This document shows positions 18,286 to 41,222 of a DNA stretch of 64,000 bases, piece by piece. Location: NCBI GenBank assembly GCA_018127705.1, contig CP072328.1, positions 62,001 through 126,000 on the forward strand, written 5' to 3'. The position numbers were made by a program, and so were the translations under genes. The DNA comes from TM7 phylum sp. oral taxon 349. GTDB lineage: Bacteria > Patescibacteriota > Saccharimonadia > Saccharimonadales > Saccharimonadaceae. Position 1 is the stretch's first letter, and every line of letters begins with the position of its first letter. The notes under the pieces were generated by a model. That model saw nothing but the letters and a program-made list of their open reading frames with translations. It did not search any database and was not told where the DNA came from.

Positions 18286-18296
18286 AAGATAAAGAT

Positions 18297-23234: not shown

Positions 23235-25585
23235 CGGTACGTTGGCGATTGGGACTGATAGGTAGTTTAGTAGCTGTGAGTGTTCTCATGAGTATTTGTG
23301 CTGCTTCGTCTGTCTCCGCGGCCGATGCACGTAATTTTAATGCCGGGAGGATTATTGATGACGCAGTATTCACAAATTCCGACTCAATGTCTGTTCAGCA
23401 GATACAACAGTTTCTAGAGAGTAAAGTATCGTGTGATACGTGGGGGCAAAAGCGGTCTGAGTTAGGTGGCGGTAGTCGTGCACAATGGATGAATGCGCGT
23501 GGTATTTCGGCGCCGTTCCGTTGTATAACGGATTATGCAGAGAATCCGAATACGGGCGAGAATAATTATAGTAAACAAAACAATCCGGCTGGAGCTGTAT
23601 CAGCAGCACAACTGATTCATGTGTATGCTAAGCAATTTGATATTAATCCTCAAGTGTTGATTGCTACACTTCAAAAGGAAAACAGCTTAATTACTGATGA
23701 ATGGCCAACGCCAAAACAATTCCGCGAGGCGGTCGGGTTTGGCTGTCCTGATCATGTTGCACCGGGCGCCCCGGCATGCGACCCGGCTCACGGAAGTTTT
23801 TCGGCACAATTATATCAAGCGGCGCGGCATTTTCGCGGTTATATGGAGCGGCGACCGGGGTGGTTTGTCCCATATAGCACTGGCTGGAATAAGATAATGT
23901 GGAATCCGAATGGCGGTTGTGGTACAAGTGACGTATATATCGAAAACCGTGCAACAGCTGCTTTGTATAGCTATACGCCATATCGTCCAAATCAGGCAGC
24001 GCTTAATGCGCAATACGGCACGGGAGACGGTTGCTCGTCGTACGGTAATCGTAATTTCTATTTATTCTTTAGTGATTGGTTCGGCTCAACTCATATAAAT
24101 GGCCATTTACTAAGAACGGTTGACAATGCAACAGTTTATCTTGTCGGTAAAGACACAAAATATCCGATCGCTAGTATGGAAACGCTGAGTCAACTGTCGG
24201 CTGCTCTTGGGTCGGTTAGTTTTGTCTCGCAATCATACCTTGACACCTATCTGACAGGCCAGCTCGCTGGACGGTTAATTCGTTCGGAAGATGGTACGAT
24301 TTACTTCTATGATTCGGGAATCAAGCTACCTTTTACGTCATGTGATATGGTTGCACAGTATGGACTTGGTCAGGGCTGTGGGCAGCCTATGCAGCTAACA
24401 AACGCACAAGTAAATCGATTTTATTCTGGACCGCCAATTATGCATGGTTACAAAACAGTCAGCGGTAAGCGGTTTTACATTGAGAATGGCAGCCGTCGGG
24501 AGGTTCTTGATGATCAATCGCTTGCTCAAGCGCAGAGAGATCAGGGTTACAATGTGCTAAGCGACTCAGCGATTCAGTATTTGCCAATTGGCGAGCCAAT
24601 TGTCAGAGATAGTGTGGTTATTGAGAGTCGTAGCGGCGGGAATCGTTATCTCGTTAGTAGCGGACAAGCATATTCAATTAAGCGGTCTATGTACGTTGAT
24701 AGGGTGTTTAATAAGTTTAATAGTGGTATATTAGAACAGGAAAGCATTGCTAAATTGCCACAATCAGGAAAAGTAATTGATGATCATATTGCGAATTCGA
24801 CAGGTACGCAATATCTAATAACAGGAGATGGCAAAAAGCAGATTGTTCACCCCGGTGAAATTAACAGTACACCAACAGTCCTGTCCGATCAAATTATTAA
24901 TCAGCTAGAGGGTAGCGGCTCGCTAGAAAGTCCGATTATGATTAAATCTGCGGATAATGGTACGGTGTATGTGATTGAATCGCAGCAGAAACGTCCGATT
25001 GTGTCGATGGATGATGTGTTTGCTATCTTGGGCAAAAATCAACCATATATTGCATGGGTATCGGGCGGTACGCTCGCCAGTATACCAAGCGGTAACGTAG
25101 TGTTTGCGCCAGGTAAGTTTGTAAAGTCGCCGTCAAATGATACTGTTTATGTATCGGATGGCTATGATAAACTATTGCCGCTATCTCATTTTCAGCAAGC
25201 TTTTGATGTCGGTGTAGAAGGGAATATCCGAACAGTGCGTGACGACGTTATTGGCAAATATAAAGTGAGCGAGTCAGTTCTATCGCCCTATGTAAACTGT
25301 GGAGGGGTAACATATTTGGGTGTTGGCGGCGTATTGTATAAGATAGAACTGTCAAATCAGCGAGCTTTTTCACTTCAGTTGCAGACGTGCAAGGCGCTTA
25401 GAAAAGAAGACGTTTTCCCAACTTTTATATCCGACGGCAGCGGTACAATTTTCTATGTTAAAGATGGTGAAATGCATCCAATTCGCAGCTGGCAAACATT
25501 CTTGTCTCTCAATAGAGAAAATAAGCCAATTGTTCGCGGCTCGTTTATTACAACACTATTGATGCCGCAAGGGTTAGTCATGTAA
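23231..25585 (+). CDS. Secreted lytic-transglycosylase-like protein with about nine C-terminal repeats
   Basis: A 784-residue exported protein. Residues 1-31 are a signal peptide ending SSVSAADA. Residues about 110-280 are a lysozyme-like region: FDINPQVLIATLQKENSLI holds the likely catalytic glutamate, and WFVPYSTGWNKIMWNP follows. From about 290 to the end there are about nine divergent repeats of 45-60 residues with the core T-V/I-Y-x-V-x-G-x-K-x-P-I (for example NGTVYLVGKDTKYPI, SGTIFYVKDGEMHPI). The repeats may bind glycan. A role on the organism's own wall or on a host wall is inference. It overlaps the upstream gene by four bases. Confidence 0.78.
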   Translation: MTVRWRLGLIGSLVAVSVLMSICAASSVSAADARNFNAGRIIDDAVFTNSDSMSVQQIQQFLESKVSCDTWGQKRSELGGGSRAQWMNARGISAPFRCITDYAENPNTGENNYSKQNNPAGAVSAAQLIHVYAKQFDINPQVLIATLQKENSLITDEWPTPKQFREAVGFGCPDHVAPGAPACDPAHGSFSAQLYQAARHFRGYMERRPGWFVPYSTGWNKIMWNPNGGCGTSDVYIENRATAALYSYTPYRPNQAALNAQYGTGDGCSSYGNRNFYLFFSDWFGSTHINGHLLRTVDNATVYLVGKDTKYPIASMETLSQLSAALGSVSFVSQSYLDTYLTGQLAGRLIRSEDGTIYFYDSGIKLPFTSCDMVAQYGLGQGCGQPMQLTNAQVNRFYSGPPIMHGYKTVSGKRFYIENGSRREVLDDQSLAQAQRDQGYNVLSDSAIQYLPIGEPIVRDSVVIESRSGGNRYLVSSGQAYSIKRSMYVDRVFNKFNSGILEQESIAKLPQSGKVIDDHIANSTGTQYLITGDGKKQIVHPGEINSTPTVLSDQIINQLEGSGSLESPIMIKSADNGTVYVIESQQKRPIVSMDDVFAILGKNQPYIAWVSGGTLASIPSGNVVFAPGKFVKSPSNDTVYVSDGYDKLLPLSHFQQAFDVGVEGNIRTVRDDVIGKYKVSESVLSPYVNCGGVTYLGVGGVLYKIELSNQRAFSLQLQTCKALRKEDVFPTFISDGSGTIFYVKDGEMHPIRSWQTFLSLNRENKPIVRGSFITTLLMPQGLVM

Positions 25586-25610
25586 ATGTGTTACAATGAA
25601 AGAACGGTCT

Positions 25611-27026
25611 ATGAAAAAACAACTTCATATCTTTTCTGCTAAGTTTGAAAAACTAAAAAAACCTCATTATTTGTACGGATTTATCGCCATCATTGCTGCT
25701 GTTAGTTTTGTCTTTCTGACGCCGCCGTTTCAAGCTCCGGATGAAGAGGCTCATTATATGAGGGCTTACCAGTTTGCGAAAGGACATATTATCTTGGGTA
25801 AGCAACAAGGAAATACATTAAGTGCTTGCACTCCCAAGGAAGCCATAAATGATATGTTAGAGGTTAGGGGCTCGGATATCAGAGGTAACACAAACAAGAA
25901 GTATGATATACGTGATGTCAAAAGAAAATTATTTGATAAAATTGATAAACCGCAAGAGTGCGGTAAATATGATACAACAGATACGCATAACTATAGCATA
26001 CTAGGATATCTCCCTGCAGTATTCGGGATAGGTTTGATTGATGCGGTGAATGGACCTCCTATGGTAGGATTCTATCTTGCACGTTTGTTTACAGCTATCA
26101 TTTCAATCGCTATCATTTCAATCGCTATCTACCTTATTCCTAGGCGCAAATTGGTATTAATTGTCGTCTCGTTGTTACCAATGTTGGTTTTTCAGCAATC
26201 TGTCATATCTGTAGATGGTGTATCGTTTGCTATATTGGCGCTATTTATAGCGTACACCTCTAGATTGTACTACGAAAAGAGTATTGATAAAAAACAGTGG
26301 ATTAAATTAGCTGCTATAGTTTTTGCGCTATGCATCAGTAAACCATTGTTGTATATATTTATACCATATATCTTTATACTGTTATCTAAGAAAAATCGTA
26401 AAAAGATTTTTATTATATTAGCTTTTTCCGTATTGACCGTTATTGGGTTTATGATAATGGGGCGAATGCTATATGGTAAGGTTCGTGTAGGTGGTGCGGA
26501 AGGGGCAAATTATTTAGAGCAGGCGAAATATTTAATAGGAGCTCCCACGAAGATTCCGGAAATCGCTTTAAATACTTATACGACTAATTACGGTGATTCT
26601 ATTATCCAGGGCATAATAGGGGTGTTCGGGGTTGCTGACACGACAATGCCAATTTGGGTGTATTTTATGGCTGCTATAAATATTTCTTTTACATTTTTAT
26701 TATCATCGGTAGATGATAATAAAACGAAAAGACTGAAAAAAATACATATAATAGTATTTTCTCTATTAATAATATTTTATTTTGCAATAGTAAATGGTGC
26801 GATATATGTATTCTATAGTCCAGTGAAATTTGAAATTTTGTATGGAGTACAAGGTAGATACTTCTTGCCAATTCTACTTGCCCTTGTGCCAATACCAATT
26901 AGATATATTACCGTAAATAAGAATCAGTATAGTAAACTGCGGAGAGATATAATAATTACTTCGGTTTGTATACTACTAATAGCGGTGTATATAGTGTTAC
27001 GTAGATATTATCTCTATACGCCATGA
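25611..27026 (+). CDS. DUF2142-like polytopic membrane protein
   Basis: About 471 residues with eleven or more membrane helices. The N-terminal pattern FLTPPFQAPDEEAHYMRAYQFAKG matches DUF2142, a family found in polysaccharide loci and thought to be related to GT-C glycosyltransferases; the acidic DEEAH in the first outer loop would be the active-site candidate. The first ATG at 25596 is also possible; 25611 (MKKQLHIF) is the more usual beginning. It is AT-rich and follows the lytic-like protein by 25 bases. Donor and acceptor are unknown. Confidence 0.75.
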   Translation: MKKQLHIFSAKFEKLKKPHYLYGFIAIIAAVSFVFLTPPFQAPDEEAHYMRAYQFAKGHIILGKQQGNTLSACTPKEAINDMLEVRGSDIRGNTNKKYDIRDVKRKLFDKIDKPQECGKYDTTDTHNYSILGYLPAVFGIGLIDAVNGPPMVGFYLARLFTAIISIAIISIAIYLIPRRKLVLIVVSLLPMLVFQQSVISVDGVSFAILALFIAYTSRLYYEKSIDKKQWIKLAAIVFALCISKPLLYIFIPYIFILLSKKNRKKIFIILAFSVLTVIGFMIMGRMLYGKVRVGGAEGANYLEQAKYLIGAPTKIPEIALNTYTTNYGDSIIQGIIGVFGVADTTMPIWVYFMAAINISFTFLLSSVDDNKTKRLKKIHIIVFSLLIIFYFAIVNGAIYVFYSPVKFEILYGVQGRYFLPILLALVPIPIRYITVNKNQYSKLRRDIIITSVCILLIAVYIVLRRYYLYTP

Positions 27027-27165: not shown

Positions 27166-28269
27166 ATGATATCAATCGCATCACCAATTGTAGAAAGTGA
27201 GGAAATAAAAGCCGTTAATGATGTGCTTGAGTCGGGGATGTTGGCTCAGGGGCCAAAGACTGCTCAGTTGGAAGAAGATTGGGCAAAGTACTGCGGCACA
27301 AAATATGCGCTCGCAGTAAATAGCGGTACGGCTGCAATACATTCTGCGCTGTATGCGGCTGGCGTGCGCGAGGGCGATGAAGTTATTACGACACCGTACA
27401 GCTTCATTGCGACGATTAACCCGATTTTGATGCTTGGTGCTCGCCCGGTATTGGTTGATATTGATTCGGCGACGTTTAACATTGACGTGACAAAAATTGA
27501 AGCAGCGGTGACATCAAAAACGAAGGCGATCGTGCCAGTTGATTTGTACGGTCAACCGTGCGAGTGGGACGAATTACGCGCGGTTGCTGATAAGCACAAT
27601 TTGATGATTATAGAAGACGCCTGTCAGGCGATCGGTGCTGATTATAAGAGTAAAAAAGCAGGTGCGCTCGGTGATTTAGGCTGCTTTTCGCTGTATGCTA
27701 CTAAAAATATTATGTGCGGCGAAGGCGGTATCGTCACAACCAATAGCGACGAGCAGGCTGCGGCAATTCGCTCGTTCCGCCAGCATGGTATGGTCGCGCC
27801 GTATGAATACGCTGAGCTTGGCTATAACTACCGGATGTCAGATTTACATGCGGCAATTGCTGTCGAGCAGCTGAAGAAAGTTGATAACTTTACAGTGCGT
27901 CGCCAGCATGTTGCGAGCGAGTTGAATAAAGCACTCAATGGCATAAAGGGGATTCAGCTGCCGAGCGTTGCTCCGGATCGTTCGCATGTATACCACCAAT
28001 ACACGGTTGTGCTGACTGATGACGCGAACGTTTCGCGCGATGAGTTCGTTGCCGGTTTGCGCGAGCGCGGTGTAGGCGCTGGGATTTATTACCCAAAGCC
28101 ATTGCATGTCTATCCGCATATCGCAAAACTTGGTTACAAAGTTGGCGATTTCCCTATAGCAGAAGATTTGGCGGCTCGGGTTGTGTCGCTGCCAGTTCAT
28201 CCGAAAGTGTCAGACGAGGACGTCGCTACTATTGCTAGAGCAGTCAAGGAGGTGCTTGCAAATGGCTAA
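27166..28269 (+). CDS. DegT/DnrJ/EryC1 sugar aminotransferase
   Basis: A 367-residue PLP enzyme of the sugar aminotransferase family. It has AVNSGTAAIHSAL near residue 48, EDACQAIGADYKSKKAGALGD near 150 and the PLP lysine in FSLYATKNIMCGEGG near 180. Such enzymes place an amino group on a keto-sugar nucleotide, using glutamate. It opens a seven-gene operon and overlaps the Gfo/Idh oxidoreductase gene by eight bases. WbpE-like action on a 3-keto sugar is plausible because a Gfo/Idh dehydrogenase is the partner in that route. Confidence 0.9.
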   Translation: MISIASPIVESEEIKAVNDVLESGMLAQGPKTAQLEEDWAKYCGTKYALAVNSGTAAIHSALYAAGVREGDEVITTPYSFIATINPILMLGARPVLVDIDSATFNIDVTKIEAAVTSKTKAIVPVDLYGQPCEWDELRAVADKHNLMIIEDACQAIGADYKSKKAGALGDLGCFSLYATKNIMCGEGGIVTTNSDEQAAAIRSFRQHGMVAPYEYAELGYNYRMSDLHAAIAVEQLKKVDNFTVRRQHVASELNKALNGIKGIQLPSVAPDRSHVYHQYTVVLTDDANVSRDEFVAGLRERGVGAGIYYPKPLHVYPHIAKLGYKVGDFPIAEDLAARVVSLPVHPKVSDEDVATIARAVKEVLANG

Positions 28270-29269
28270 TCCACAAAAAGAAGGAAAGCTACGCACTGCT
28301 GTTATTGGTACGGGCAACATGGGTAAGAATCATGTACGGAATTACTTCATGCTTCCGGAAGCTGAGTTAGTGGGTATCGCTGACGTAAACCCCGCAGCAA
28401 AAGCACTTGCCGATGAATACCGTACAAGCTTTTTTACTGATTATAAGAAGATGCTTGACGAGGTTCATCCTGATGCGGTATCGGTTGTTGTACCGACACC
28501 ATTCCACCTTGAAGTTGCGCGCGAAGTGATGAGCCGAGGTATTCACTGTATGCTTGAGAAACCGATTGCTTCATCGGTGGAAGCGGCCGACGAGCTGATT
28601 GCTTGTGCAAAAAAGTATAAAGTCGTCTTCACGGTTGGGCATATTGAACGCTTTAACCCTGTCATGAAGAAATTAAAACAGATGGTTGATGAGAAAGCGA
28701 TTGGTGAAATAACCTCGGTGGTCTGTAAGCGGGTAGGCAGTTTCCCCATGAATGAGCCAAAAACTGATGTCATCATTGATCTTGCCGTGCATGACATTGA
28801 TCTCGTTAGCTACCTACTCGGTAAACAACCTGTATCTATTACAAGCCACGGATCACGAACTCACCACTCTAAAAAGATTGATTCGGCCGAAATACTAATG
28901 GACTATGGCCGTGCGTCTGGTTTTATTCAGGCAAATTGGCTGACGCCGGTTAAAATTCGTACTATTGCGCTTACCGGTTCAATGGGCTATCTTGAGGCGA
29001 ATTATATTACTCAAGAACTTGTATACTATAAGCATAATATGAAGGGGGAAGAAAGCGACGGATTCACCGACTTCGTTCGACGAATGGGCGAGCCAGAAAA
29101 ACGAGTTATTAAAGTTGATTTCGAAGAGCCTCTAGCCGCTGAATTGAAAGCATTTATAGCAAAATCGATGGGTCGAACGGCGGCAATTGTAGACCCGCGT
29201 GATGCTCGAGAGGCACTGAAGATTGCCCTTGAATCGATTGCTCCATTTGAGGCAAAAGGAGGTAAATAG
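28262..29269 (+). CDS. Gfo/Idh/MocA-family oxidoreductase
   Basis: About 335 residues. The NAD-binding motif TAVIGTGNMGKNHVRNY is near the start, EKPIASSVEAADELI near 95, and the catalytic-type region VIDLAVHDIDLVSYLLG near 175. The start is ATG 28262 (MANPQKEG) with AAGGAGG eight bases upstream; an earlier in-frame ATG lies inside the aminotransferase gene. WbpB- or WlbA-like oxidation of a UDP-sugar carbon, giving the keto substrate for the adjacent aminotransferase, is the likely role. Confidence 0.9.
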   Translation: MANPQKEGKLRTAVIGTGNMGKNHVRNYFMLPEAELVGIADVNPAAKALADEYRTSFFTDYKKMLDEVHPDAVSVVVPTPFHLEVAREVMSRGIHCMLEKPIASSVEAADELIACAKKYKVVFTVGHIERFNPVMKKLKQMVDEKAIGEITSVVCKRVGSFPMNEPKTDVIIDLAVHDIDLVSYLLGKQPVSITSHGSRTHHSKKIDSAEILMDYGRASGFIQANWLTPVKIRTIALTGSMGYLEANYITQELVYYKHNMKGEESDGFTDFVRRMGEPEKRVIKVDFEEPLAAELKAFIAKSMGRTAAIVDPRDAREALKIALESIAPFEAKGGK

Positions 29270-30750
29270 TGAAGCTATCAAGTTTTACTGCTTCATTTCA
29301 TGAATATGAGTATAGCCTGGAGTATTATCACGGAAAAGATGTGCTACATGAAGGGTCGCTGCTAAAAATTGATCCATCATATTCTTGGGAGCGAATTAAT
29401 CGTAAAATTCGTAATAAAATTAGGCAAGCGCAGAAACAAGATATTGGCATTAGGCGTGTTACCGGTACTGCAAAGGACATTGCTAACTTTCGGACTATAT
29501 GGTTTGATCCAAATGATGAGACTCTGCCAGTTCAGCTCTCTGATGATGAAGTGATGTATCTTGCGTACGCTAATGGCGAGTTGATTGGCGGTCTAATCTT
29601 AACACCATCAACGCCAAATACGCTATACATGCATAACCTCGGTGGCAATGAATTTGCAAAGCGACATAATGTACCTGCATTGCTTTTGTGGCATGCTGTA
29701 GAGGATTTGGTAGGTACGCGGTGGCAGTATATTGATGTCGGCGTGAGTTTTCGCCCTACGCTGTATAACTTTTTCAAAAATTGGAAGGTTGATGGCTATC
29801 CTATTATATTCTCTCCTCCGTTTATTCGACCAGACATTCGCTTAACTCCGTTTACCGGTCGAGATATTGTACGCTTTAATAACGATACGCCAAAGCAGGC
29901 TGATGAAATTATCGCGCAATACTTTGGCGATACGTATACTATTTTGCCACGGGCGATTAGCTGTCTTCAGGTGGTGCTAAAATATCTTGGTATCGGTAAG
30001 AGCGATTCTGTTGCGGTTTATAAAACATTTGCGGGCAACGAATACATTAGCGGTTGTGTACGAACTCCGATTAAGCAGCACGGCACAATGGTTCGCGAAA
30101 TTGACGACTCAACAAAAGCGGTTGTAGTGATTCATGAATTTGGCATACCGTATGAGAATCTACGTGAACTAAAGAAACGATGTGAAGAAAAAAATATTCC
30201 GTTGATTGAGGATTGTGCATGGTCGTATGGAAGCGAATTAGCAGATGGTACGCGTATTGGATCGGTGGGTGATTATGCGATTTATAGTTTGCCAAAGATT
30301 CTACCGGTGCAATATGGCAGCGTATTGGTGGGTCTTCAGGTATCAGATGAAGATAATTGGCAAAACTACCAATTGCTTGATTTTTATAAGCGTGAAATTG
30401 TTCGAAAAGCTTTAGTCGAACATTTGCCGCGTCTTGAGTCGTATAATTTGCAGCGCAGGAAAAACTGGCAGACGCTATCCGAGTGGTTTGTGCGAGATGG
30501 CTTTACTGAAATCGGCACGTTGGGCAAAAAAGTTTACCCTGGTGCATACATCGTGAAGGTGCCAGAATATGAAGATATATTTTCTCGGTATGAAATGTTT
30601 GGTGTAGAAACCGGGCGTTATTATCCAGATGAAGCGTTATTCTTGCCGGTGCATCAAAGCTTAGCACAAAATGAGCTGGCGTATATGTACGGCGTATTTC
30701 GAGGTAAGCTTAATCTGTGCAGCAATTATCAACGAGGCGGTAAAAAGTGA
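29269..30750 (+). CDS. FemAB/GNAT-like acyltransferase fused to DegT-like aminotransferase domain
   Basis: A 493-residue fusion. Residues about 20-190 look like a FemAB/GNAT acyltransferase: SWERINRKIRNKIRQAQKQD, LAYANGELIGGLIL and YIDVGVSFRPTLYNFFKNW. Residues about 220-490 resemble a reduced DegT-type aminotransferase: AVVVIHEFGIPYENLRELKK, IEDCAWSYGSELADG and a retained lysine in YSLPKILPVQYGS. The start is GTG 29269, overlapping the previous stop by one base. It might N-acylate the amino sugar made by the two upstream enzymes; whether the DegT part is active is unknown. I know no standard name for this architecture. Confidence 0.75.
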   Translation: MKLSSFTASFHEYEYSLEYYHGKDVLHEGSLLKIDPSYSWERINRKIRNKIRQAQKQDIGIRRVTGTAKDIANFRTIWFDPNDETLPVQLSDDEVMYLAYANGELIGGLILTPSTPNTLYMHNLGGNEFAKRHNVPALLLWHAVEDLVGTRWQYIDVGVSFRPTLYNFFKNWKVDGYPIIFSPPFIRPDIRLTPFTGRDIVRFNNDTPKQADEIIAQYFGDTYTILPRAISCLQVVLKYLGIGKSDSVAVYKTFAGNEYISGCVRTPIKQHGTMVREIDDSTKAVVVIHEFGIPYENLRELKKRCEEKNIPLIEDCAWSYGSELADGTRIGSVGDYAIYSLPKILPVQYGSVLVGLQVSDEDNWQNYQLLDFYKREIVRKALVEHLPRLESYNLQRRKNWQTLSEWFVRDGFTEIGTLGKKVYPGAYIVKVPEYEDIFSRYEMFGVETGRYYPDEALFLPVHQSLAQNELAYMYGVFRGKLNLCSNYQRGGKK

Positions 30751-31436
30751 TATATGCCCTCTATTCGGATATCCATAACGATAGGGATGGTTGGCGGCGG
30801 CTAAGCCGGCATCAGGCATTTTTGACGGCTGATAGGCGAATTTGTCTTGGCGATGTTATTAATGCGCATATGCCAGAAGAAGCGATTAAGTTCTACCGGC
30901 AGGTAGCAAAGGCAAGTGATGCTGTAGTGCTCGGTAATCACGAAGCGATTTTTACAGGTAAGTGTGATATTGCAACTTTCCACCCGCGGCTTTCTCAAAA
31001 ACTTTCTCAGGCGAAAACTTGGTTGACGGCCACTGAACCGCAGCTTGTAAAAGAATTTGCACGGCTACCGCAACGTATAAACCTCGGCGAAGAAGCGGTG
31101 GCGACGCATGGTAGTTTTTCTGCAGATAATCCATGGAGGCATATTCGCTATATAGAAGATGTTGCAGATGAGGCGGCGCATACATCTGCGAGAATTGCTT
31201 TTTTGGGCCACGGACATATCCCATTTATTGCATACAAAAAAGAAGGGTATTGGTTCTATGATCGCCAAGTATATCGTAAGCCATTTTTGCTAGATAGTGA
31301 TACGCCGTATATCATTAATATAGGGAGCGTACTTGGCTCTCGTGAAATGCGTTGGCATGAAAAGACGTTCGTAGCGTATAATGATGAAATACCTTGCGTG
31401 ACGTTTTACGAGCTAACGGGATATAAGGAGAAATGA
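30747..31436 (+). CDS. Calcineurin-like metallophosphoesterase
   Basis: A 229-residue phosphoesterase with the metal motifs YSDIHNDRDGW (D8, H10), CLGDVINA, VLGNHEAI and GHGHIPF, followed by NIGSV. Start GTG at 30747 overlaps the previous stop by four bases. The fold hydrolyses phosphomonoesters, phosphodiesters or nucleotides. Inside a sugar operon it could remove phosphate from a sugar intermediate or cleave a nucleotide-sugar; the sequence does not decide this. Confidence 0.87.
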   Translation: MIYALYSDIHNDRDGWRRLSRHQAFLTADRRICLGDVINAHMPEEAIKFYRQVAKASDAVVLGNHEAIFTGKCDIATFHPRLSQKLSQAKTWLTATEPQLVKEFARLPQRINLGEEAVATHGSFSADNPWRHIRYIEDVADEAAHTSARIAFLGHGHIPFIAYKKEGYWFYDRQVYRKPFLLDSDTPYIINIGSVLGSREMRWHEKTFVAYNDEIPCVTFYELTGYKEK

Positions 31437-31437
31437 T

Positions 31438-32475
31438 ATGACAACGGTGTTAGTGACTGGCATTGGCGGTACGCGATCAATCGGAATTATGAAATCGCTT
31501 CGCGATATGCAGGAGCATATACGCGTGATCGGCACGGATGCAAATTTTTTCAATGCTGGCGCGTTTCAATGTGATGTGGCGTATATTGTACCGTTTGCAT
31601 CAGAAGAGGGGTATTTGGCGCGTCTTGAAGAAATTATTACAAAAGAAAACGTGTCGATTGTTTTTGCGAGCGTTGAGAAAGAAGTAGCGTTTTTAGCGCA
31701 GCATAAGGCAGAAATTGAGGCAATGGGTGTAGTCTGTCTTGTGCCTGATCAAGAGGTGCTTGCTGTCTGCTTTGATAAGTATAAGACTCAGCAATTTCTG
31801 AACGATAATGGTTTTACTGCTATTCCATGCATCTATACAGATAACGAAGCTGCTACACGACAGTTCGCAGACGAACATGGTTTTCCTCTCATTCGTAAAC
31901 CAGTCATGGGGTATGGCTCGAAAGGACTATCAATCATTTGCGCTCAAGAGGAACTTGCAGAAATTCCAAAAAGTAACGAATATGTTCTGCAGCAATATAT
32001 TGAGAATGAAGATACGGAAACGTTCTACAATACCGTACTTAATGAATATACTGCTGAGGTGTTTATCAATAACAATGGCTCGGTTGCGGGCGGCATTATT
32101 CTTAAGCGGGCGCTCCATGCGGGCGAGACAGTGGCGGGGTATAGTGTAGATGATGAGAAAACGCTACGCTACTTGAGCGGTATCGCGGTGAAGCTAGGTA
32201 TCAAAGGACCGTGTAACTTTCAATATCGCAAGGCTGACGGTAAAATATATATCTTTGAAATTAATCCCCTGTTTTCTGGTACCACATACGTGCGAGCTCA
32301 ATTTGGATTTAACAATGTGGCACTCGCGGTCAAAAGTTTTGTACGGGGTGAGCATGAGACGATCGCAAGTAGTGAGCTAGAAGATAAATACTTTGTTCGC
32401 TATTTGAGCGAAACATTTATAAATCCAAAAGATATTGAGAAGTTTCAAACAACAGGGAAGTTTACGAAGCAATGA
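31438..32475 (+). CDS. ATP-grasp ligase, carbamoyl-phosphate-synthase-like
   Basis: A 345-residue ATP-grasp protein. It begins with a Rossmann-like domain (VLVTGIGGTRSIGIMKSL), then the ATP-grasp core with PLIRKPVMGYGSKGLSII near residue 150 and the metal-binding E-I-N-P in IFEINPLFSGTTYVRA near 275. Such enzymes activate a carboxylate and join it to an amine. In this operon it could attach an amino acid or other acid to an amino sugar. It lies one base after the phosphoesterase stop and overlaps the epimerase by four. Confidence 0.85.
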   Translation: MTTVLVTGIGGTRSIGIMKSLRDMQEHIRVIGTDANFFNAGAFQCDVAYIVPFASEEGYLARLEEIITKENVSIVFASVEKEVAFLAQHKAEIEAMGVVCLVPDQEVLAVCFDKYKTQQFLNDNGFTAIPCIYTDNEAATRQFADEHGFPLIRKPVMGYGSKGLSIICAQEELAEIPKSNEYVLQQYIENEDTETFYNTVLNEYTAEVFINNNGSVAGGIILKRALHAGETVAGYSVDDEKTLRYLSGIAVKLGIKGPCNFQYRKADGKIYIFEINPLFSGTTYVRAQFGFNNVALAVKSFVRGEHETIASSELEDKYFVRYLSETFINPKDIEKFQTTGKFTKQ

Positions 32476-33344
32476 ATATACTTGTAACTGGCGGCACAGG
32501 GTTTCTTGGGGGATATGTGTTACCTCTGCTGGCTGATGATTCGGAGATAGATAAGCTCTTGTATACTTATCGTCACCAGCCGTGCGGGGAGTCTTCATCT
32601 ATGCGCGGTCTGGCTCTTGATATTACAAATCTTGAGAATTTTAAGCCTCACCAGGCTGTTCTTGAAGAGGTGACATGCTTGGTACATATGGCTTCAGCCG
32701 TATCGCACGGTCGTGTTGCGCTTTATCAGGATATCTCACAGAATATTACTGAAAATTTCTCGAGCCTTGGTAATCTTTTGCAGTTTTTGCCAAATTTAGA
32801 AAAGATAGTCTATATAAGTAGCGGCTCAGCAGAAATCTACAAAGATGATCCTACGATGTATGGTGTTGGTAAGCTGCTTGTGGAACAGGTTCTGCAGCAT
32901 ATCGTGCGGTACCATAATGTAGCCTGCACTATACTACGTTTTCCACAATTATACGGTCCAGGTGAGCCACATGGTACTTTTGTAAGTAAATTTATTAATT
33001 CTTTTTTGGATGGAAAAGCAATTCAGCTTATGAACGATGGTACAACGGTGCGAGACATTCTTTATGTTAAGGATGCGGCAGCGAGCATCGTTTACGCTGC
33101 TAAACAGGCACCCTCTGGCGTATTTATGGTGAGCGACCCAATTAAACATACTGTTGGTGAGATTGCTGTTATTCTACAAGTAATAACGGGGGCAGACGAT
33201 GCGTGTATTGTACGAGTGAGTTCAAACAACACTGGTGCGCTTGGCTATCACTTTACAAGTGACATAGATAAGCTTGGTTATAAACTGTGCTATACTGTAG
33301 AACAGGGGTTAGAAGAGACTGTAAGGGGATGGAATAATGTATAA
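32472..33344 (+). CDS. NAD-dependent epimerase/dehydratase (extended SDR)
   Basis: A 290-residue extended short-chain dehydrogenase. The nucleotide motif is VTGGTGFLGGYVLPLL, and the catalytic triad region has SSGSAEIYKDDPTMYGVGKLL (Tyr and Lys of YxxxK as YGVGK). It has RFPQLYGPG and VRDILYVKDAA as in nucleotide-sugar epimerases. It is shorter than GalE or RmlB. It probably epimerises or reduces a nucleotide-sugar of this operon. It overlaps the following GT2 by eight bases. Confidence 0.87.
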   Translation: MNILVTGGTGFLGGYVLPLLADDSEIDKLLYTYRHQPCGESSSMRGLALDITNLENFKPHQAVLEEVTCLVHMASAVSHGRVALYQDISQNITENFSSLGNLLQFLPNLEKIVYISSGSAEIYKDDPTMYGVGKLLVEQVLQHIVRYHNVACTILRFPQLYGPGEPHGTFVSKFINSFLDGKAIQLMNDGTTVRDILYVKDAAASIVYAAKQAPSGVFMVSDPIKHTVGEIAVILQVITGADDACIVRVSSNNTGALGYHFTSDIDKLGYKLCYTVEQGLEETVRGWNNV

Positions 33345-34272
33345 AAATTTGAAAGTTGGTGTATTTGTTCCCGCCTATAATGAGGAAAAGCAGATAGCGG
33401 CTGTGCTTAAGACGATGCCTGACTTTGTTGATAAGGTGTTGGTGGTTGATGATTGTAGCCAAGATGATACATCAAAAGTTGTAAAGCGATTTTTAAAAGA
33501 TAAAAGGATAGTATTGCATCGTAATGAGAAAAATATGGGCAATGGTGCTGGTGCTAAGTTCGCTTATCAAAAACTAGTTGAGATGGGTATGGATATCATT
33601 ATGCCGATGAGCGGTGATGGGCAGACAGAACCGCAATATATGCCTCGGTTACTTGATCCTGTTGTAGAAGATAAATGTGATTTTGCAAAAGGTAATCGCT
33701 TCTTAGAGAGGGCGGTCTATAATAAAATGCCTACCTATCGTTATTGGGGTAATATCTTTGTAACGATGATAAACAAATTCTCAACAGGCTATTATTCAAT
33801 GTATGACAGCTTGAACGGATATTATGCTATTAAGGCAGACACCTTGAAGAAACTCGATTTCTCGCGACTAGGCGATCGCTATGAGTTCGAGAATAGTTTT
33901 TGGATTCAGCTCAATATTGTTAACGCGCGCGGGCTTGATGTATCTATCCCGCCTGTCTACAAAGATGAGAAATCTACCATTAAGCTAGGCAGAACAGCGC
34001 TGCGTACGCTATGGGTATTGTTTAAAGGTTTTTTCGAGCGTATTTTCCGCAAATATATTCTCTTTAATCTTACGCCAACGGGTCTCTTCTTCATTACCGG
34101 CACACTGCTGACATTGTTTGGTATAGTTTGGGGATTATTTATAACAATTAAGTCAATTGGACCAGCAAGCCCGTCAACAGCAACGGTCATGCTCGCTGTG
34201 GTGCCATTTATTTTGGGTGTGCAAATACTCTTGCAGGCAATTGTGCTTGATATCCAAGCAGAGCCGAAGTAA
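33337..34272 (+). CDS. DPM1-like GT2 glycosyltransferase with two membrane helices
   Basis: A 311-residue GT2. The GT-A domain has VFVPAYNEEKQIAAVLK, VVDDCSQDDTSK near 37 and MPMSGDGQTEPQYM near 88. Two hydrophobic helices occupy about 235-300, separated by a short charged segment. It should transfer a sugar, probably the product of the upstream operon, to polyprenyl phosphate. It is the last gene of the operon and a strong hairpin terminator follows. Confidence 0.87.
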   Translation: MYKNLKVGVFVPAYNEEKQIAAVLKTMPDFVDKVLVVDDCSQDDTSKVVKRFLKDKRIVLHRNEKNMGNGAGAKFAYQKLVEMGMDIIMPMSGDGQTEPQYMPRLLDPVVEDKCDFAKGNRFLERAVYNKMPTYRYWGNIFVTMINKFSTGYYSMYDSLNGYYAIKADTLKKLDFSRLGDRYEFENSFWIQLNIVNARGLDVSIPPVYKDEKSTIKLGRTALRTLWVLFKGFFERIFRKYILFNLTPTGLFFITGTLLTLFGIVWGLFITIKSIGPASPSTATVMLAVVPFILGVQILLQAIVLDIQAEPK

Positions 34273-34336: not shown

Positions 34337-34424
34337 TGGCGGAAGGGGTACGATTCGAACGTACGGCGCACAAATGCGCAAACACCAAAAGGTATTTTAC
34401 CTTAAACCACTCAGTCACCCTTCC
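34337..34424 (-). tRNA. Class II tRNA (Ser-like) with abnormal eight-base anticodon loop
   Basis: Minus-strand cloverleaf of 88 bases: acceptor GGAAGGG/CCCTTCC, discriminator G and encoded CCA. The D arm is Ser-like (ACT, loop GAGTGGTTTAA, GGT), the long variable arm is GCGCA-TTTG-TGCGC, and the T arm is GTACG-TTCGAAT-CGTAC. The variable arm and G73 resemble tRNA-Ser. The anticodon stem AAATA/TGTTT pairs fully, but it encloses eight bases, CCTTTTGG, with no serine, leucine or tyrosine anticodon. If T33 is the first T, the anticodon would be UUU (lysine). It may be decayed or specialised. It lies beside an IS element. Confidence 0.7.
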
Positions 34425-34480: not shown

Positions 34481-35423
34481 GGATACTCTAAACTAAAACG
34501 GAACATCCCATATACTTAGAGATGTAAAGCAACTAAGTACAGAAAGGACGCTCCGTATGTCTAACATACCAAACTTTGCCAGCAATAAGAAGTGCTGGAG
34601 GCTTATCAACAAGCTTGTCTTTGGGGAGGAGGTGTCGTGCCCGCTCTGCGGGTGCGAGCTGCAAGAAAACTACCTCTCAAGATATCTCTGGTGCAAAATA
34701 TGCCGCAAAAAGCTCAGAGCCACTGCCTGGCATGGTTCCTGGCTGTATGGCATGAAGCTGTCGTCCAAACAACTATTCAAGCTAATCTGGTGCTGGCAGA
34801 ATCGTAAAAGTGTTGAGGCAGCTATACTGTTTGCTGGCGTTAGTTATCCAACTGTAGCTAGATGGTTCTCCCGCTTTCGAGAGAACCTGCCAGACGCTGC
34901 AACAATGCTAGAAGGCTTAATCCAAGCCGACGAAAGCTACTTCTCAAAGCTCAAGAGTAAACAAGCTACCTACATAGTTACTGGCGCCATTGAGCAGGAT
35001 ACCGGGCGCTTAGCCTTGCGTATAACCGGCGGCTTCCATGACGGACGAAGCCAAGATGTGCTTGAACAGTTCATCCAAGACAGCGTAAAACCAGGCAGCC
35101 TAATTATTACCGACAAATGGTACGGTTACGACGAATTACCGCTCCTAGGCTACGAGCATGAAAGCCACAACCACAGCAGAGGCGACTTTGCTAATACCAA
35201 CAAAGCTGAGCTAATTTGGAGCGTAGCCAAGCGCCACATGCGCAAACTCTACGGACAACGCATCCTAACCCACCAACTAGAAGAACTCTGCAAAGAATGG
35301 ATGGCAAGAGCCAACCGCCCCAAGCTATTCGAGGACCCGATGACTTACCTGCGCTTTACTTTGGATGTTCCAAGTGGGTACAGTCAACTAACATGGAACA
35401 AGCGTAAACCGTGGATAAGTTGA
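34481..35423 (+). mobile_element. IS1595-like insertion sequence with inverted right tail
   Basis: The left end GGATACTCTAAACTAAAACG... at 34481-34505 precedes the transposase. At the right, GGTACAGTCAACTAACATGG... (35377-35400) has the same orientation as the left end instead of the opposite, flanked by TGTTCCA (35366-35372) and TGGAACA (35394-35400). Sequence beyond it (to about 35420) reads as the transposase tail in reverse. The right end is therefore a tail-to-tail join rather than a normal terminus. Confidence 0.75.
34557..35423 (+). CDS. IS1595-family (ISXO2-like) transposase
   Basis: A 288-residue transposase. An N-terminal zinc ribbon has CPLCGCELQ and CKICRKKL (about residues 24-57). 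The DDE-type core runs from LIQADESYF near 122, through IITDKWYGYDEL near 183, to the N-K-A-E segment TNKAELIWSVAKRHMRK near 223. The last 16 or so residues (from SGYSQLTW) arise by reading through an inverted copy of the element's own end; the related remnant at 48.8 kb stops after VPF. The protein is otherwise intact and may be active. Confidence 0.9.
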   Translation: MSNIPNFASNKKCWRLINKLVFGEEVSCPLCGCELQENYLSRYLWCKICRKKLRATAWHGSWLYGMKLSSKQLFKLIWCWQNRKSVEAAILFAGVSYPTVARWFSRFRENLPDAATMLEGLIQADESYFSKLKSKQATYIVTGAIEQDTGRLALRITGGFHDGRSQDVLEQFIQDSVKPGSLIITDKWYGYDELPLLGYEHESHNHSRGDFANTNKAELIWSVAKRHMRKLYGQRILTHQLEELCKEWMARANRPKLFEDPMTYLRFTLDVPSGYSQLTWNKRKPWIS

Positions 35424-35450
35424 TAGATCTTTAAATAGCTCAGGGGGGGC

Positions 35451-36594
35451 TTAAACCCACCCCTCAACCGCAACACCCAAAGACGCGGCGTATTCCAGTG
35501 GCGTTAGCCACTGGAATCGTTTTCTTGGTCGGTTGTTAAGCATGGATTCTACTTTTAATATATCCCGGTTAGTTAGTTTTTTGAAGTCAGTGCCTTTGGG
35601 GAAGAAGTCGCGGATGAGCCCGTTGGCGTTTTCGTTTCTGCCTCGTTCCCAGGAATGGTAGGGATTGGCGAAGTAAATATCCGCTCCTAGGTCTTTCTCG
35701 GTTTGTCTCCAACCGGCAAATTCTACGCCGTTGTCGTAGGTTATGGTCTTTGGCAAGGCTCCGGTGTGCCTGCTGAGCCTTTCTAGATCAAGCATGGTCT
35801 GTTTTTGTATCTTATGTACATCATAGCCGCACACTAGGCTAATTGAGACTAACCCCGTCTTTCGCTCCACGTGAGTTAGCAATCTGTCTCGGCTATCTTT
35901 GCCGAAGATGGTATCGCCCTCTAGGTCGCCTAAGCGCCCGAGTTCATCCACTACGCCGGGTCTAGCTGCAATATTGCGTTTGCCGGCAGACATCCAGCCG
36001 GCAGGTACGGCAGGTATACGGCTGCATCTGTATTTCTTGCCGCGGCGCCGCAGGTGTTTATGGAGGTTGTATTTCTTGGCGTATTTGCAGATTGCTTTAG
36101 GCGAGACGTAAGACAAGCTAGCAGATTTGTCTCTTTTGTTAATCTCTATCTGCAGCCTGCCAGCAATCTGCTCGGGAGACCAACGCAGCCTGAGGCGCGA
36201 TTCAACGAACTCTCTGGTTTGCTGGTATCCAGAAAGCTCCGAGCAGCAGGGATTGTTTCTTGCATCTAGCCAGCATCTTATGCTGGGCGGATTTAGCCAA
36301 GTAGTTTATTCTCTCGAATTGGCACAGGCGTCTTCTATGCCGAGCTTTCTTTTCGCGAATCACTGGCACTTTGGCGGTACCGCGAAAGTGTCTCGAGTCT
36401 AGTCCCAGCTCCTTAGGTTTATTAACTCTGGTCTTTTTGGCAAAATTTTGGTTTCGCCTGAGCTCCCGAGAGATGGTTGAGGGACTGCGGTTTAGCATGC
36501 GAGCTATCTCGCGCACCCTGGCTGAGCTTCTAAGCAGCGCTTCAATAACAATTCGCTCTTCGCTTGAAAGTTGTGTATACTCTCTTTGAGGCAT
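35451..36594 (-). pseudogene. IS30-family transposase, frameshifted
   Basis: The minus strand encodes an IS30 transposase in two frames. The first part (36594-36202, 130 residues) has the N-terminal helix-turn-helix (LSSEERIVIEALL, ISRELRRN). The second frame is open from about 36240 onward through WSPEQIAGRLQIEINKRDKS to the DDE core: LGDLEGDTIFGKDS, TYDNGVEFAGW and WERGRNENANGLIRDFF, ending at 35451. One base shifts the frame near 36230-36245. I see no slippery site, so it is probably inactivated. The stop codon lies just outside the left inverted repeat, supplied by flanking DNA. Confidence 0.88.
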
Positions 36595-36704
36595 TTTGGA
36601 ATACCTTTCTGCTAAAATTAGGTTGTTTTCGCAGATCCAATTTTAACAAAGGACGAACCAAGATGCCTCTTTTTGTATGGGGAGTGTTGCGGTTGAGGGG
36701 TTGG
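35456..36704 (-). mobile_element. IS30-like insertion sequence
   Basis: Bounded by an 18-base perfect inverted repeat: ACCCCTCAACCGCAACAC at 35459-35476 and its complement at 36684-36701, with weaker matching outside. It contains the frameshifted transposase and about 90 bases upstream of it. It lies immediately right of the IS1595-like element. Confidence 0.85.
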
Positions 36705-36717
36705 TGTAGGGGGTTGG

Positions 36718-36745
36718 TTGACTAAATACATTATTATGTTAAAAT
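36718..36745 (+). promoter_or_regulatory. Promoter of the 409-residue orphan gene, leaderless
   Basis: TTGACT at 36718-36723, a 16-base spacer and TGT plus TAAAAT (36740-36745). The ATG at 36755 follows after nine bases with no Shine-Dalgarno. The promoter starts about 14 bases outside the IS30 inverted repeat. Confidence 0.6.
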
Positions 36746-36754
36746 AGAGTTACT

Positions 36755-37984
36755 ATGAGAGATAATGATAACCAAATCGCAGAAAAGTTGCCCTGGGTGC
36801 CGAAGGAGCTATTCTTAGATCAAAACCGAGAGACTGTCGCTGAAATCTTAGGCACTATTGCTGTTGACTCAGAGAATTCAGCCTTCGCTGAAGAGGCTAG
36901 ACGAGCACAGAATGACGTTGAATCGGGCGGTGAGCTATCAGAAGAAACTCGCAGGTTCATGTGGAGGCGTTGGATGGGCACTCAGCATGGTACAGCCGAA
37001 GGTACACAAGGTAAAGTGCTTATTACTCAAGACAATAGCAAAAGATACTGGGAACTTATAAAGCAGCTCCATTACGGTGATCTTCGTTTCACCGAGGGTC
37101 GGTATACGCCATCAGATATTGAAATTGGACACAGCCTGATACTGGGTAGCGGTCCGGAAGAAATAATTGCTCGTATGCAGGCCGCCTATGGTGACGACCC
37201 AGCGAGCGGGCGCATCCACAACGCACACCTTTTAGTTGGTCAACGCCGACGTTGGCCGGGGGCGCCGGACGAGTTAAATCCTGAAACTATTATCTCTACC
37301 GTTTCTCGTCAGATAGGCAATGAACATTTTGATATGGACAAACTGCTCGGTATGCCGCATTGGCGAGACGAGATAAAGAAGCCTGTTGATCCCGAGTTTA
37401 ACAATTGGGATGAGGCATTTGCTACCGAGTATATTATCGGTAAACTGGCACTGGAAGCGATGCTCTATGACTTGATAGATTGGAAAAACGGATCCGAGGA
37501 TATTCCCGCAACGTCAACCGATCAACCGGCGCAAGAATTAATTGACGCGGGTGTTCCTCTGCGTGATTCCGTTATGACCATCTACCATCTCAAGAACGGC
37601 ACAAACGCTACATTATTGAATGCCGCTGCTATACCGCGCCACAATGGAGGTAATCCGCGTCCAACTTGTGAATCGCAGTATAGGGAGATAATAGATTCGG
37701 GCGTGTTTAGCAAGAATTCTGCAGATCTTGAATTACCCATGAGTGTGAGCGTCAGTACTCCGCATTGGCGGGCTGTGATAGAGGCGCCGATGCGGCTTTT
37801 AGGCAACAATAACCCCACACTAAACCGGATTCCGTCTATATTGCCGGTAGGACATGATTGGTCGCCTACTAAAGATCCTATCACAGCATTAGGCGAGATA
37901 ATTGCAACGCACAAAGCAGACTTACGGCTAAGAGCTCTTATGGACGGCAAAAACCCAGATGCCCCAGAACTGCTTGACATATAG
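36755..37984 (+). CDS. Unknown 409-residue soluble protein
   Basis: Not recognised. It starts MRDNDNQIAEKLPWVPKELF, is acidic, has no signal peptide or membrane helix and lacks obvious catalytic motifs. Notable segments are RFMWRRWMGTQHGTAEG near residue 70, LLVGQRRRWPGAP near 160 and SVSVSTPHWRAVIEAPMRLL near 330. Trp, His and Arg spacing might indicate a nucleic-acid or sugar-binding fold, but this is a guess. Its codon pattern looks like that of a real, intact gene. It stands alone between two insertion sequences, so it may be horizontally acquired cargo or a survivor of a disrupted locus. Confidence 0.75.
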   Translation: MRDNDNQIAEKLPWVPKELFLDQNRETVAEILGTIAVDSENSAFAEEARRAQNDVESGGELSEETRRFMWRRWMGTQHGTAEGTQGKVLITQDNSKRYWELIKQLHYGDLRFTEGRYTPSDIEIGHSLILGSGPEEIIARMQAAYGDDPASGRIHNAHLLVGQRRRWPGAPDELNPETIISTVSRQIGNEHFDMDKLLGMPHWRDEIKKPVDPEFNNWDEAFATEYIIGKLALEAMLYDLIDWKNGSEDIPATSTDQPAQELIDAGVPLRDSVMTIYHLKNGTNATLLNAAAIPRHNGGNPRPTCESQYREIIDSGVFSKNSADLELPMSVSVSTPHWRAVIEAPMRLLGNNNPTLNRIPSILPVGHDWSPTKDPITALGEIIATHKADLRLRALMDGKNPDAPELLDI

Positions 37985-38032
37985 CAAAAATATTTATTCC
38001 CCTATTTAGCCTACGCTTAGTCTGTATTCTTT

Positions 38033-38495
38033 TTACCTCTTTAGTTCACCAAGTTTATCAATCAATAGCAGAACAACTAACATTAACAACAGCGACGCTA
38101 CATGCACTACTCTATACCCGCTCGCATACATCGTTGGCGAGACCCACAGCATGGCTGTTGCAGTAGCTGCTAAGAGACAGCCAGTGATGCATATTGCTGC
38201 TTTTTGACGGGATCTTATACCAAAAACAATAGCAATTGCAACGATAGTCAGGACTAACGCGCACAGCCAAAATATCACCGGAATCCATTGCGTAAACCCG
38301 CCGACATAACGCCACGAAGCATGAAAATTAACAATACCGCCAAAATGAACTTTGCGTAATAGCATCATAAGCTCCACATCAAGCATGATAGTTTTAGCTA
38401 GCAAGAACACACTAGCGAAACCCATGATAGCTAGGACTTTTTTATGGAGCCGCCAAAGCATTATACATAGCAAACACCATACTTCGTACCAACCC
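38033..38495 (-). pseudogene. C-terminal fragment of a large membrane protein (DUF6056-like) cut by an IS
   Basis: A 154-codon hydrophobic stretch with four to five helices, from GWYEVWCLLCIML to LLMLVVLLLIDKLGELKR. It begins exactly at the IS481-like element's left inverted repeat, so it has no start of its own. Its likely N-terminal half is at 39583-40461 on the same strand, beyond the insertion. Together they resemble polytopic glycosyltransferase-related proteins. It is not expected to be functional. Confidence 0.7.
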
Positions 38496-39581: not shown

Positions 39582-39582
39582 A

Positions 39583-40461: not shown

Positions 40462-40471
40462 ATGTACCAAA

Positions 40472-40844: not shown

Positions 40845-41222
40845 ATGCTGTTAATCGGATTTTGGCTTGTTGTTTATAGTGTTATCGTTGCGCTATCAAT
40901 TATTTTTCTTGGTAATCCTAGCACGCTTGTTGGTGCGCTTACCGTCAAGTCGCTGCTTGGGCTTTTACTTGACTGGAGGTTTCTTTTGGGAGGTATTCTT
41001 GCTTTGGGCGCACGTTTTATCTTCGTGATCATCAACAATCTTGCTTCCAAAAATCCGGATCTTGCTTCAGCGCACCTCACCATTACGGCGGTCGCTACCA
41101 CTGCAAGTGTTGTTTTTGTGATTCTCGTAAACCATTTCTTGCTTGGCGAGCAACTCCGCCTTTCGCAGATTATTGGAATTGCTATTGTGCTTTTTGGTCT
41201 TTATATCGTTTTCGCAAAATGA
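40845..41222 (+). CDS. Small DMT-superfamily membrane protein (EamA half / ArnE-like)
   Basis: A 125-residue protein with four helices, equal to one half of an EamA transporter. The C-terminal end (FVILVNHFLLGEQLRLSQIIGIAIVLFGLYIVF) is the typical EamA repeat end, with glutamate in the last loop. Small proteins of this type act as dimers in multidrug export or as flippases of lipid-linked aminoarabinose. The setting among glycan genes favours lipid-sugar transport, but this is inference. It stands alone between gaps. Confidence 0.75.
   Translation: MLLIGFWLVVYSVIVALSIIFLGNPSTLVGALTVKSLLGLLLDWRFLLGGILALGARFIFVIINNLASKNPDLASAHLTITAVATTASVVFVILVNHFLLGEQLRLSQIIGIAIVLFGLYIVFAK

Follow-up and report, generated by a model that had tools for sequence, protein, structure and literature searches.

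A putative 3-amino-sugar operon in an oral member of the Saccharimonadia, with an ATP-grasp module in place of an acyltransferase

The 64,000-nucleotide stretch of the genome of TM7 phylum sp. oral taxon 349 that was analyzed here (the window; bases 62001-126000 of contig CP072328.1) carries seven adjacent genes that we judge to be a variant of the known 3-amino-sugar pathways, in which the acyltransferase has been replaced by an ATP-grasp module. Numbered in order, they encode a DegT-family pyridoxal phosphate (PLP) aminotransferase (gene 1), a Gfo/Idh/MocA dehydrogenase (gene 2), a fusion of a GNAT domain with a DegT-like domain (gene 3), a metallophosphoesterase (MPE; gene 4), an ATP-grasp ligase (gene 5), an extended short-chain dehydrogenase/reductase (SDR; gene 6) and a family 2 glycosyltransferase (GT2; gene 7). 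The gene order, the families, the motif residues, the conservation and the exchange of an acyltransferase in the same slot were observed directly. The source genome is one contig of 1.02 Mb and is 98% complete; families were called with Pfam and NCBIfam, the Pfam matches being listed at E<=0.001.

A conserved gene order with an exchangeable slot

All seven open reading frames (ORFs) lie on the + strand at 27166-34272, with the places, lengths and families first described for them. Their junctions are, in order, an 8-base overlap, a 1-base overlap, a 4-base overlap, a 1-base gap, a 4-base overlap and an 8-base overlap, counted with gene 2 starting at ATG 28262 (the mechanical ORF start is TTG 28181). 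This packing, together with the recurrence of all seven genes at a second locus, bears out the original prediction of a single operon for a modified amino sugar. The second locus, L072, lies on a contig named "Patescibacteria group bacterium isolate Bin_44_4" and was the nearest of 27 loci found by scanning genome contigs with a three-sequence ATP-grasp alignment. It has the seven genes in the same order, at identities of 66% for DegT, 65% for Gfo/Idh, 72% and 55% for the GNAT and DegT parts of the fusion, 42% for the MPE, 55% for the ATP-grasp, 39% for the SDR and 72% for the GT2. Because the seven-gene order recurs there, the linkage goes beyond chance.

The set is real and conserved, but it is also rare, accessory and modular. 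Of 342 genomes of its own class, five gave a Gfo/Idh match at E<=1e-50 (that of the window, G294, G386, G448 and G497), and G294, which belongs to the same genus, shares genes 1 and 2 at 97% and 85% identity and differs in the genes after them. The ATP-grasp query matched three of 13 same-genus genomes (the source included), four of 60 relatives and 22 of 286 genomes of the phylum, the last mostly weakly and many of them to long ORFs. The expectation that the genes would be linked and not scattered is thus borne out in full by L072 (7/7) and elsewhere only by sub-modules, in G294, G386, G448 and G497; across the genus it does not extend to the majority of genomes, which are without the ATP-grasp.

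What follows the pair of genes 1 and 2 differs from locus to locus. In the window and L072 it is fusion-MPE-ATP-grasp-SDR-GT2; in G294, G448 and G497 it is ATP-grasp-SDR-HAD, with a GT2 homologue nearby and no fusion; and in G386 it is fusion-hexapeptide acyltransferase-GT2, without the trio of MPE, ATP-grasp and SDR. G273, a genome placed elsewhere in the phylum, has DegT-Gfo/Idh-ATP-grasp-HAD, and the slot is filled overall by two ATP-grasp subclades and two phosphatase superfamilies. Outside the class, Gfo/Idh matches at E<=1e-40 in 10 of 267 genomes, the source included, gave nine further loci. In five of these (L132, L133, L134, L135 and L138) a hexapeptide acyltransferase, in the role of WbpD, adjoins the gene 2 homologue and a DegT gene is in the locus, with the L135 acyltransferase on the opposite strand and a UDP-sugar 6-dehydrogenase also present in three (L133, L134 and L138). 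Because a hexapeptide acyltransferase occupies the same slot elsewhere, it is simplest to suppose that the acyltransferase's job, the acylation of the new amine, would here fall to the ATP-grasp module.

The Pfam and NCBIfam libraries hold no model naming such a pathway. In the literature no description of the seven-gene set was found, overlap with the predictions of Iyer et al. 2009 not having been compared, which agrees with the original remark that no named pathway is known to have exactly these genes. The Iyer predictions reportedly concern amidoligases with ATP-grasp and GNAT-like domains in metabolite and peptide modification.

The sugar pair, the ligase module and the fusion protein

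Genes 2 and 1 resemble the GnnA/GnnB pair: a Gfo/Idh dehydrogenase beside a DegT aminotransferase, active-site motifs included. In gene 1, GT at 54-55, D151, Q154, K180 and NYRM at 221-224 fall in columns that are invariant among seven sequences, and presumably fill the canonical DegT aminotransferase roles. The closest solved structure to gene 2, by a five-sequence profile, was 7bvj (full length, 136 bits), with 3q2k and 3q2i at 69 and 65 bits; we take the first to be GnnA and the other two to be WlbA, names that the structure listing does not carry. A UDP-sugar 6-dehydrogenase (PF03721) was absent from the source genome and present in 13 of 14 control genomes. It was also not found in G294, G448 and G497, nor in the genome of L072, whose completeness is not stated, so that all five genomes examined with the ligase module are without it and would offer no obvious uronic acid acceptor. 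Mainly because this enzyme is missing, a GnnA/GnnB-type conversion of UDP-N-acetylglucosamine (UDP-GlcNAc) to UDP-GlcNAc3N is the likelier route of genes 2 and 1. The pair had been described as of WbpB/WbpE type, and the logic of an oxidation followed by an amination stands, while a reaction on the WbpB/WbpE substrate, UDP-GlcNAcA, was rejected for want of a 6-dehydrogenase in so complete a genome.

GnnA and GnnB make the UDP-GlcNAc3N for the lipid A of some proteobacteria (PMC7663294, in part). They too are a Gfo/Idh 3-dehydrogenase and a DegT aminotransferase that do not need a 6-dehydrogenase, but the pair described here is accompanied by a ligase and a GT2 within a surface-glycan locus, and its substrate is a predicted one. 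The WbpA-B-E-D route to UDP-GlcNAc3NAcA follows the same oxidoreductase/aminotransferase logic (PMC10622841, in part), and a similar WbpA-B-D-E-like set (6-dehydrogenase, Gfo/Idh, hexapeptide acyltransferase and DegT) is found in patescibacterial L134 and L138. The present genome differs in being without the 6-dehydrogenase, and the operon in having the ATP-grasp trio instead of a hexapeptide acetyltransferase. No acetyltransferase of the WbpD type is among the seven ORFs, and the G386 hexapeptide protein had no match in the source genome, a search for which the query is weakly conserved and a positive control was lacking.

An amide ligase was thought from the outset to be the unusual feature of the operon, and gene 5 does exceed the curated cut-off of NF009402 (269 bits against 218). 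It matched PylC-like_N (PF21360), ATP-grasp_3, ATPgrasp_Ter and CPSase_L_D2 in Pfam, and no TupA-like model was among the matches at the threshold used. D113 and K114 are invariant, and K154, E274 and N276 are kept in at least 90% of 16 sequences, residues that we take to bind ATP and Mg. The nearest solved structures were 2pn1 and the carbamoyl phosphate synthases, with an amino acid ligase and Ddl further down. In gene 4 the metal-site residues D8, H10, D36, N64, H65, H121 and H157 are conserved in a ten-sequence alignment, and H155 in nine of the ten; its family had been correctly named and its presence left unexplained, and, given that MPEs recur near such ATP-grasps, it now probably belongs to the ligation chemistry. 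Any role of gene 6 in the pathway is a guess. Gene 7 has two C-terminal hydrophobic stretches by hydropathy in addition to its PF00535 domain, in keeping with the polyprenyl type first assigned to it.

Gene 3 had been called an acyltransferase-DegT fusion, and both the GNAT and the DegT-like halves were recovered, the second as a short and divergent domain and not as a full DegT aminotransferase. Residues 1-200 aligned over 143 columns (hhalign probability 96.5, E=9e-10) when compared with a profile built from three stand-alone GNAT proteins, two of which sit directly upstream of an ATP-grasp gene in Gastranaerophilales; the fusion's own match to GNAT PF13480 (E=0.0014) is below the cut-off. 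One of the three GNAT proteins was scanned and passed the PF13480 cut-off, with a weak match to PF04339 FemAB_like (E=0.0068), and the name "FemAB-like" for the N-terminal half is suggested partly as a matter of judgement. The C-terminal part aligned with DegT proteins (hhalign 97.7, E=1.5e-12), the Pfam match to DegT covering residues 276-340 at E=9.6e-12. There K343 and D315 are kept, W318 replaces the canonical Gln, the phosphate-site Thr is not retained and the NYRM motif is absent from all three fusions, two alignments disagreeing over that stretch; the roles of these positions (Schiff-base Lys, Asp, Gln/His, phosphate-site Thr, NYRM) are assumed from other DegT proteins. Without the Gln, the Thr and NYRM of canonical sugar aminotransferases, this half may not be a second sugar aminotransferase, and as a guess it could bind PLP with altered chemistry or serve as a scaffold.

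The fusion matched proteins in 88 of 286 genomes, its own included, the others partially. There was no match in phages, five plasmid records held partial matches, and none was confirmed among 32 candidate stretches of genome contigs or 22 of viral contigs. Full-length copies are confined to the window and G386 (2 of 392 genomes) and L072, and the idea of a widespread bifunctional enzyme was abandoned. As a separate observation, a cluster in G583 (L119 3956-8266) encodes a full DegT, a protein that resembles WbqC by eye and a short DegT-like protein, perhaps with a second such protein beside it (by eye); the short protein may represent the C-terminal domain of the fusion as an independent protein.

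The proposed pathway and its rivals

The operon is proposed to make a UDP-linked 3-amino sugar that would be N-acylated by ATP-driven ligation instead of from acetyl-CoA, with phosphate chemistry in the trio and lipid loading by the GT2. The reactions, the identity of the acid, the SDR step and the part of the fusion are all predicted from sequence, and the proposal is held tentatively, at a little under an even chance. Gene 2 would oxidize C3 of UDP-GlcNAc and gene 1 would transaminate the oxidized sugar to UDP-GlcNAc3N. Gene 5 would then activate a carboxylic acid, probably a phosphorylated one, as an acyl phosphate and couple it to the 3-amine. The resulting amide, which might be a 3-phosphoglyceryl or O-phosphoseryl one, would afterwards lose the phosphate of its acid through gene 4. 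The amidation of the C. jejuni HS:2 capsule, in which a phosphorylated unit is ligated and later dephosphorylated, offers a precedent (PMC11800397, in part). Gene 6 could adjust the oxidation state or the stereochemistry of the acyl group or the sugar, and the GNAT half of gene 3 could add another acyl group. Gene 7 would load the sugar onto polyprenyl phosphate, and an EamA/SMR-like protein and a DUF2142 protein encoded nearby may flip the lipid-linked sugar, followed by transfer outside.

The association of phosphatases with related ATP-grasps was followed in 26 loci, 13 of them from the 27 of the scan and 13 others; the annotated S. meliloti L036 stood for the 13 Sinorhizobium/Ensifer loci, and L093 was dropped as a near copy of L092. 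Within three genes of the ATP-grasp there is an MPE in A. noterae, two Lachnospiraceae, two Gastranaerophilales, Roseivirga, Cytophagales contigs and G268, a PHP protein in S. meliloti and a HAD protein in G155, G273, G079, G294, G448, G497 and Haloarcula. Ten neighbour proteins were checked with Pfam, the other phosphatases being called by BLAST, our own profiles or eye, and ORF calling went wrong at some high-GC loci (L074, L076, L082, L087 and the S. meliloti SDR). An SDR lies within three genes in 11 of the 26 by script, a Cytophagales one just at the threshold, or 12 with the annotated S. meliloti SDR. Several of the neighbours are enzymes of amino-sugar synthesis, among them a WecE-type transaminase over its cut-off directly upstream in A. 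noterae and in the Lachnospiraceae metagenome-assembled genome (MAG) L086, and the Pse proteins of L092 and G155 described below.

Several observations weigh against the proposed pathway. The sequence names no acid and gives no proof that it is phosphorylated. The phosphatases found within three genes at 18 of the 26 chosen loci speak for the pathway, and none of 252 ORFs more than four genes away matched, but these same proteins had served to train the profiles and some of the loci were picked by linkage, so that 18 of 26 is a description and not a test; the other eight (L062, L068, L091 and L094-L098, with short contigs at L095-L097) have no phosphatase at that distance. The grouping of the SDRs in phylogeny has a support of 47/86, too weak to be taken as evidence of co-inheritance. 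The fusion occurs with and without the MPE-ATP-grasp-SDR trio, and the trio without the fusion, which leaves the fusion's place in the pathway in doubt. In four of the nine out-of-class loci (L136, L137, L139 and L140) no hexapeptide acyltransferase was found by BLAST, and that of G386 is only weakly similar to named acetyltransferases. G386, of the acyltransferase type, moreover carries a 6-dehydrogenase, a TuaD-like one that is nearer to TuaD than the L134 and L138 enzymes are. Finally, NF040723 fails to separate UDP-GlcNAc from UDP-GlcNAcA and was set aside as proof of specificity for UDP-GlcNAc, as the L134 relative beside a 6-dehydrogenase scores higher than gene 2, at 327 bits.

The ATP-grasp might instead couple an unphosphorylated amino or hydroxy acid, leaving the MPE a separate task such as the trimming of a sugar or carrier-lipid phosphate. 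The PylC-like N-terminal domain is in line with this, as are the amino acid ligase and Ddl that come after the carbamoyl phosphate synthases among the nearest structures, and an "ATP-grasp amino acyl ligase" is listed for a sugar cluster of C. acetobutylicum (PMC4000134, in part). The three phosphatase superfamilies near the ligase suggest a direct link between the two activities, and this alternative is considered unlikely while still deserving some weight.

Ligation in the opposite direction has a model in C. jejuni HS:2, where serinol phosphate is attached to glucuronic acid by an ATP-dependent amidoligase domain and afterwards loses its phosphate to a HAD phosphatase (PMC11800397, in part). 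Applied to the operon, the sugar would give the carboxylate and the DegT half of the fusion would make a phosphorylated amine, to be coupled by the ATP-grasp and dephosphorylated afterwards. The two systems are alike in an ATP-driven amide with a phosphorylated partner, the removal of its phosphate and a PLP enzyme that makes the partner, and Cj1437, Cj1438C and Cj1435 match the PLP enzyme, ligase and phosphatase of the operon in kind (PMC11800397, in part). However, the Campylobacter enzymes act on glucuronic acid in a growing chain and Cj1438C is described as a TupA-like ATP-grasp (PMC11800379, in part), a type of model that gene 5 did not match; the operon has a PRK12767-family ligase, an MPE and, as the likely acceptor, an amino sugar. 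There is also no 6-dehydrogenase in the source or the four other module genomes (scavenging or another enzyme still could supply a uronic acid), the module stands without the fusion in G294, G448 and G497, and the DegT half is without canonical transaminase features, all of which make this direction improbable. It is likewise hard to credit that the ATP-grasp, SDR and phosphatase make a small building block of their own, unattached to the product of genes 1 and 2 and placed beside them through a shared polysaccharide, as the S. meliloti PHP-ATP-grasp-SDR without a neighbouring aminotransferase and the MPE-ATP-grasp within nonulosonate clusters of Bacteroidota MAGs might suggest, in view of the tight, overlapping operon and the acyltransferase exchange in G386.

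The surrounding locus and wider implications

The operon lies in a part of the window with low G+C (0.36-0.45 across 12-34 kb, against 0.45-0.48 in the earlier part and 0.44-0.48 in the 20 kb after), and a second dip, to 0.41-0.43, is seen at 54-58 kb. The low-G+C region also holds an ABC-2 exporter pair (18198-20333), a WsaF-like protein, GT2 glycosyltransferases, UbiA-type and GtrA-type proteins and DUF2142, a content that fits a surface-polysaccharide locus. Two membrane proteins are probable partners of the operon (Table 1). In G386, G448 and G497 BLAST places a DUF2142 homologue immediately before the pair, and at L072 and G294 nothing matched in that position. The EamA/SMR-like protein is 75% identical to one of G386, and homologues of 122-124 aa adjoin the GT2 in L072, G386 (with a tRNA between) and G448; in the window its gene is parted from the operon by about 6.6 kb holding insertion sequences. 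An export set with DUF2142 recalls ArnC/ArnE-F/ArnT-like transfer. A 784-aa protein (23231-25585) with a signal-like start was matched by neither Pfam nor NCBIfam at E<=0.001; it is linked to the locus, its homologues being near the pair in G386, G448 and G497.

Table 1. Coordinates of the operon, its probable partners and the insertion block in the window
Feature	Position	Strand	Basis
Gene 1: DegT-family PLP aminotransferase, GnnB/WbpE-like	27166..28269	+	PF01041 E=4.8e-127
Gene 2: Gfo/Idh/MocA NAD-dependent 3-dehydrogenase, GnnA/WbpB-like	28262..29269	+	NF040723 277 bits (cut-off 450)
Gene 3: fusion, GNAT (~1-200) and short divergent DegT-like domain (~205-493)	29269..30750	+	Pfam, hhalign
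Gene 4: MPE	30747..31436	+	PF12850/PF00149
Gene 5: ATP-grasp ligase, PRK12767 family, PylC-like N-terminal domain	31438..32475	+	NF009402, PF21360
Gene 6: extended SDR, GGTGFLG and YGVGK present	32472..33344	+	PF01370 E=1.6e-26
Gene 7: GT2, AglJ-like, polyprenyl-phosphate type	33337..34272	+	PF00535; TIGR04182 below cut-off; hydropathy
Probable partner: DUF2142 multi-helix membrane protein	25596..27026	+	Pfam; BLAST at relatives' loci
Probable partner: 125-aa EamA/SMR-like membrane protein	40845..41222	+	EamA E=0.00046, below cut-off
IS1595-family transposase	34557-35423
rve-type integrase ORF	35451-36116	-	Below cut-off
Unassigned 409-aa ORF	36755-37984
rve-type integrase ORF	38497-39066	-
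DUF6056 piece	39859-40470	-

The stretch between the operon and the EamA-like partner is occupied by an insertion block (34557-40470) and by a tRNA-Ser-like gene on the - strand at 34337-34424. The latter encodes CCA and has an abnormal anticodon arm, the other arms pairing; its anticodon loop is of eight bases, CCUUUUGG, or shorter by alternative pairing, ARAGORN reports it as tRNA-???, and ordinary tRNA-Ser genes were the closest relatives recovered. It is flanked on the same strand by a promoter-like site at 34465-34437 and, at 34320-34295, by a terminator hairpin, although matches of this kind are no more frequent in the region than in shuffled sequences. A non-decoding seryl-tRNA is conceivable, because SerRS is not known to need the anticodon and the operon possibly has a FemAB-like domain. 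As a component of the system the gene was rejected, there being no tRNA found at the L072 locus and a different one in G386. The latter, a normal tRNA-Thr (L118 8491-8565), lies between the GT2 and the EamA-like gene, near the position of the tRNA-like gene and insertions in the window, and integration may favour this gap as a hot spot.

Bacterial surface glycans commonly carry acids bound to amino sugars through amides, and where the acid is not acetate the attaching enzyme, to our knowledge, is in many cases still to be assigned. An ATP-grasp with a phosphatase (MPE, HAD or PHP), often with an SDR, could be a general, multi-phylum route that puts phosphorylatable acids such as glycerate or serine on the nitrogen of amino sugars, replacing acetyltransferases; so wide a claim seems doubtful at present. 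The nonulosonic acids offer a case to consider. The pseudaminate cluster of the Cytophagales MAG L092 has an MPE-ATP-grasp together with PseC and PseI over their cut-offs and acetamidino genes (WbuX, HisH and WbuZ-like). T. forsythia makes the N-glyceroyl pseudaminic acid Pse5Am7Gra, an N-glyceroyl amino sugar for which the candidate gene "remains elusive" (PMC6120980, in part). A tie between the MPE-ATP-grasp and that glyceroyl group is a conjecture. Elsewhere, G155 (L066 6534-10597) has a nonulosonate cluster of PseB, PseC and a NeuB/PseI-like protein below its cut-off, with GNAT-SDR-ATP-grasp-HAD, in which the SDR seems to hold a Cys at the Tyr position of YxxxK, and on pSymB of S. meliloti (L036 7575-13928) the PHP-ATP-grasp-SDR trio directly follows the cysD-nodQ-cysQ sulfate-activation genes.

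The operon is compact, its substrate is clearly predicted and the acyltransferase that takes the slot in G386 is a natural control, so that it could be tested with a few purified proteins. If the general ligase route is true, N-glyceroyl-type nonulosonic acids and similar sugars would gain the class of genes so far missing for them, and the sugar chemistry of many uncultured lineages would become readable from their genomes.

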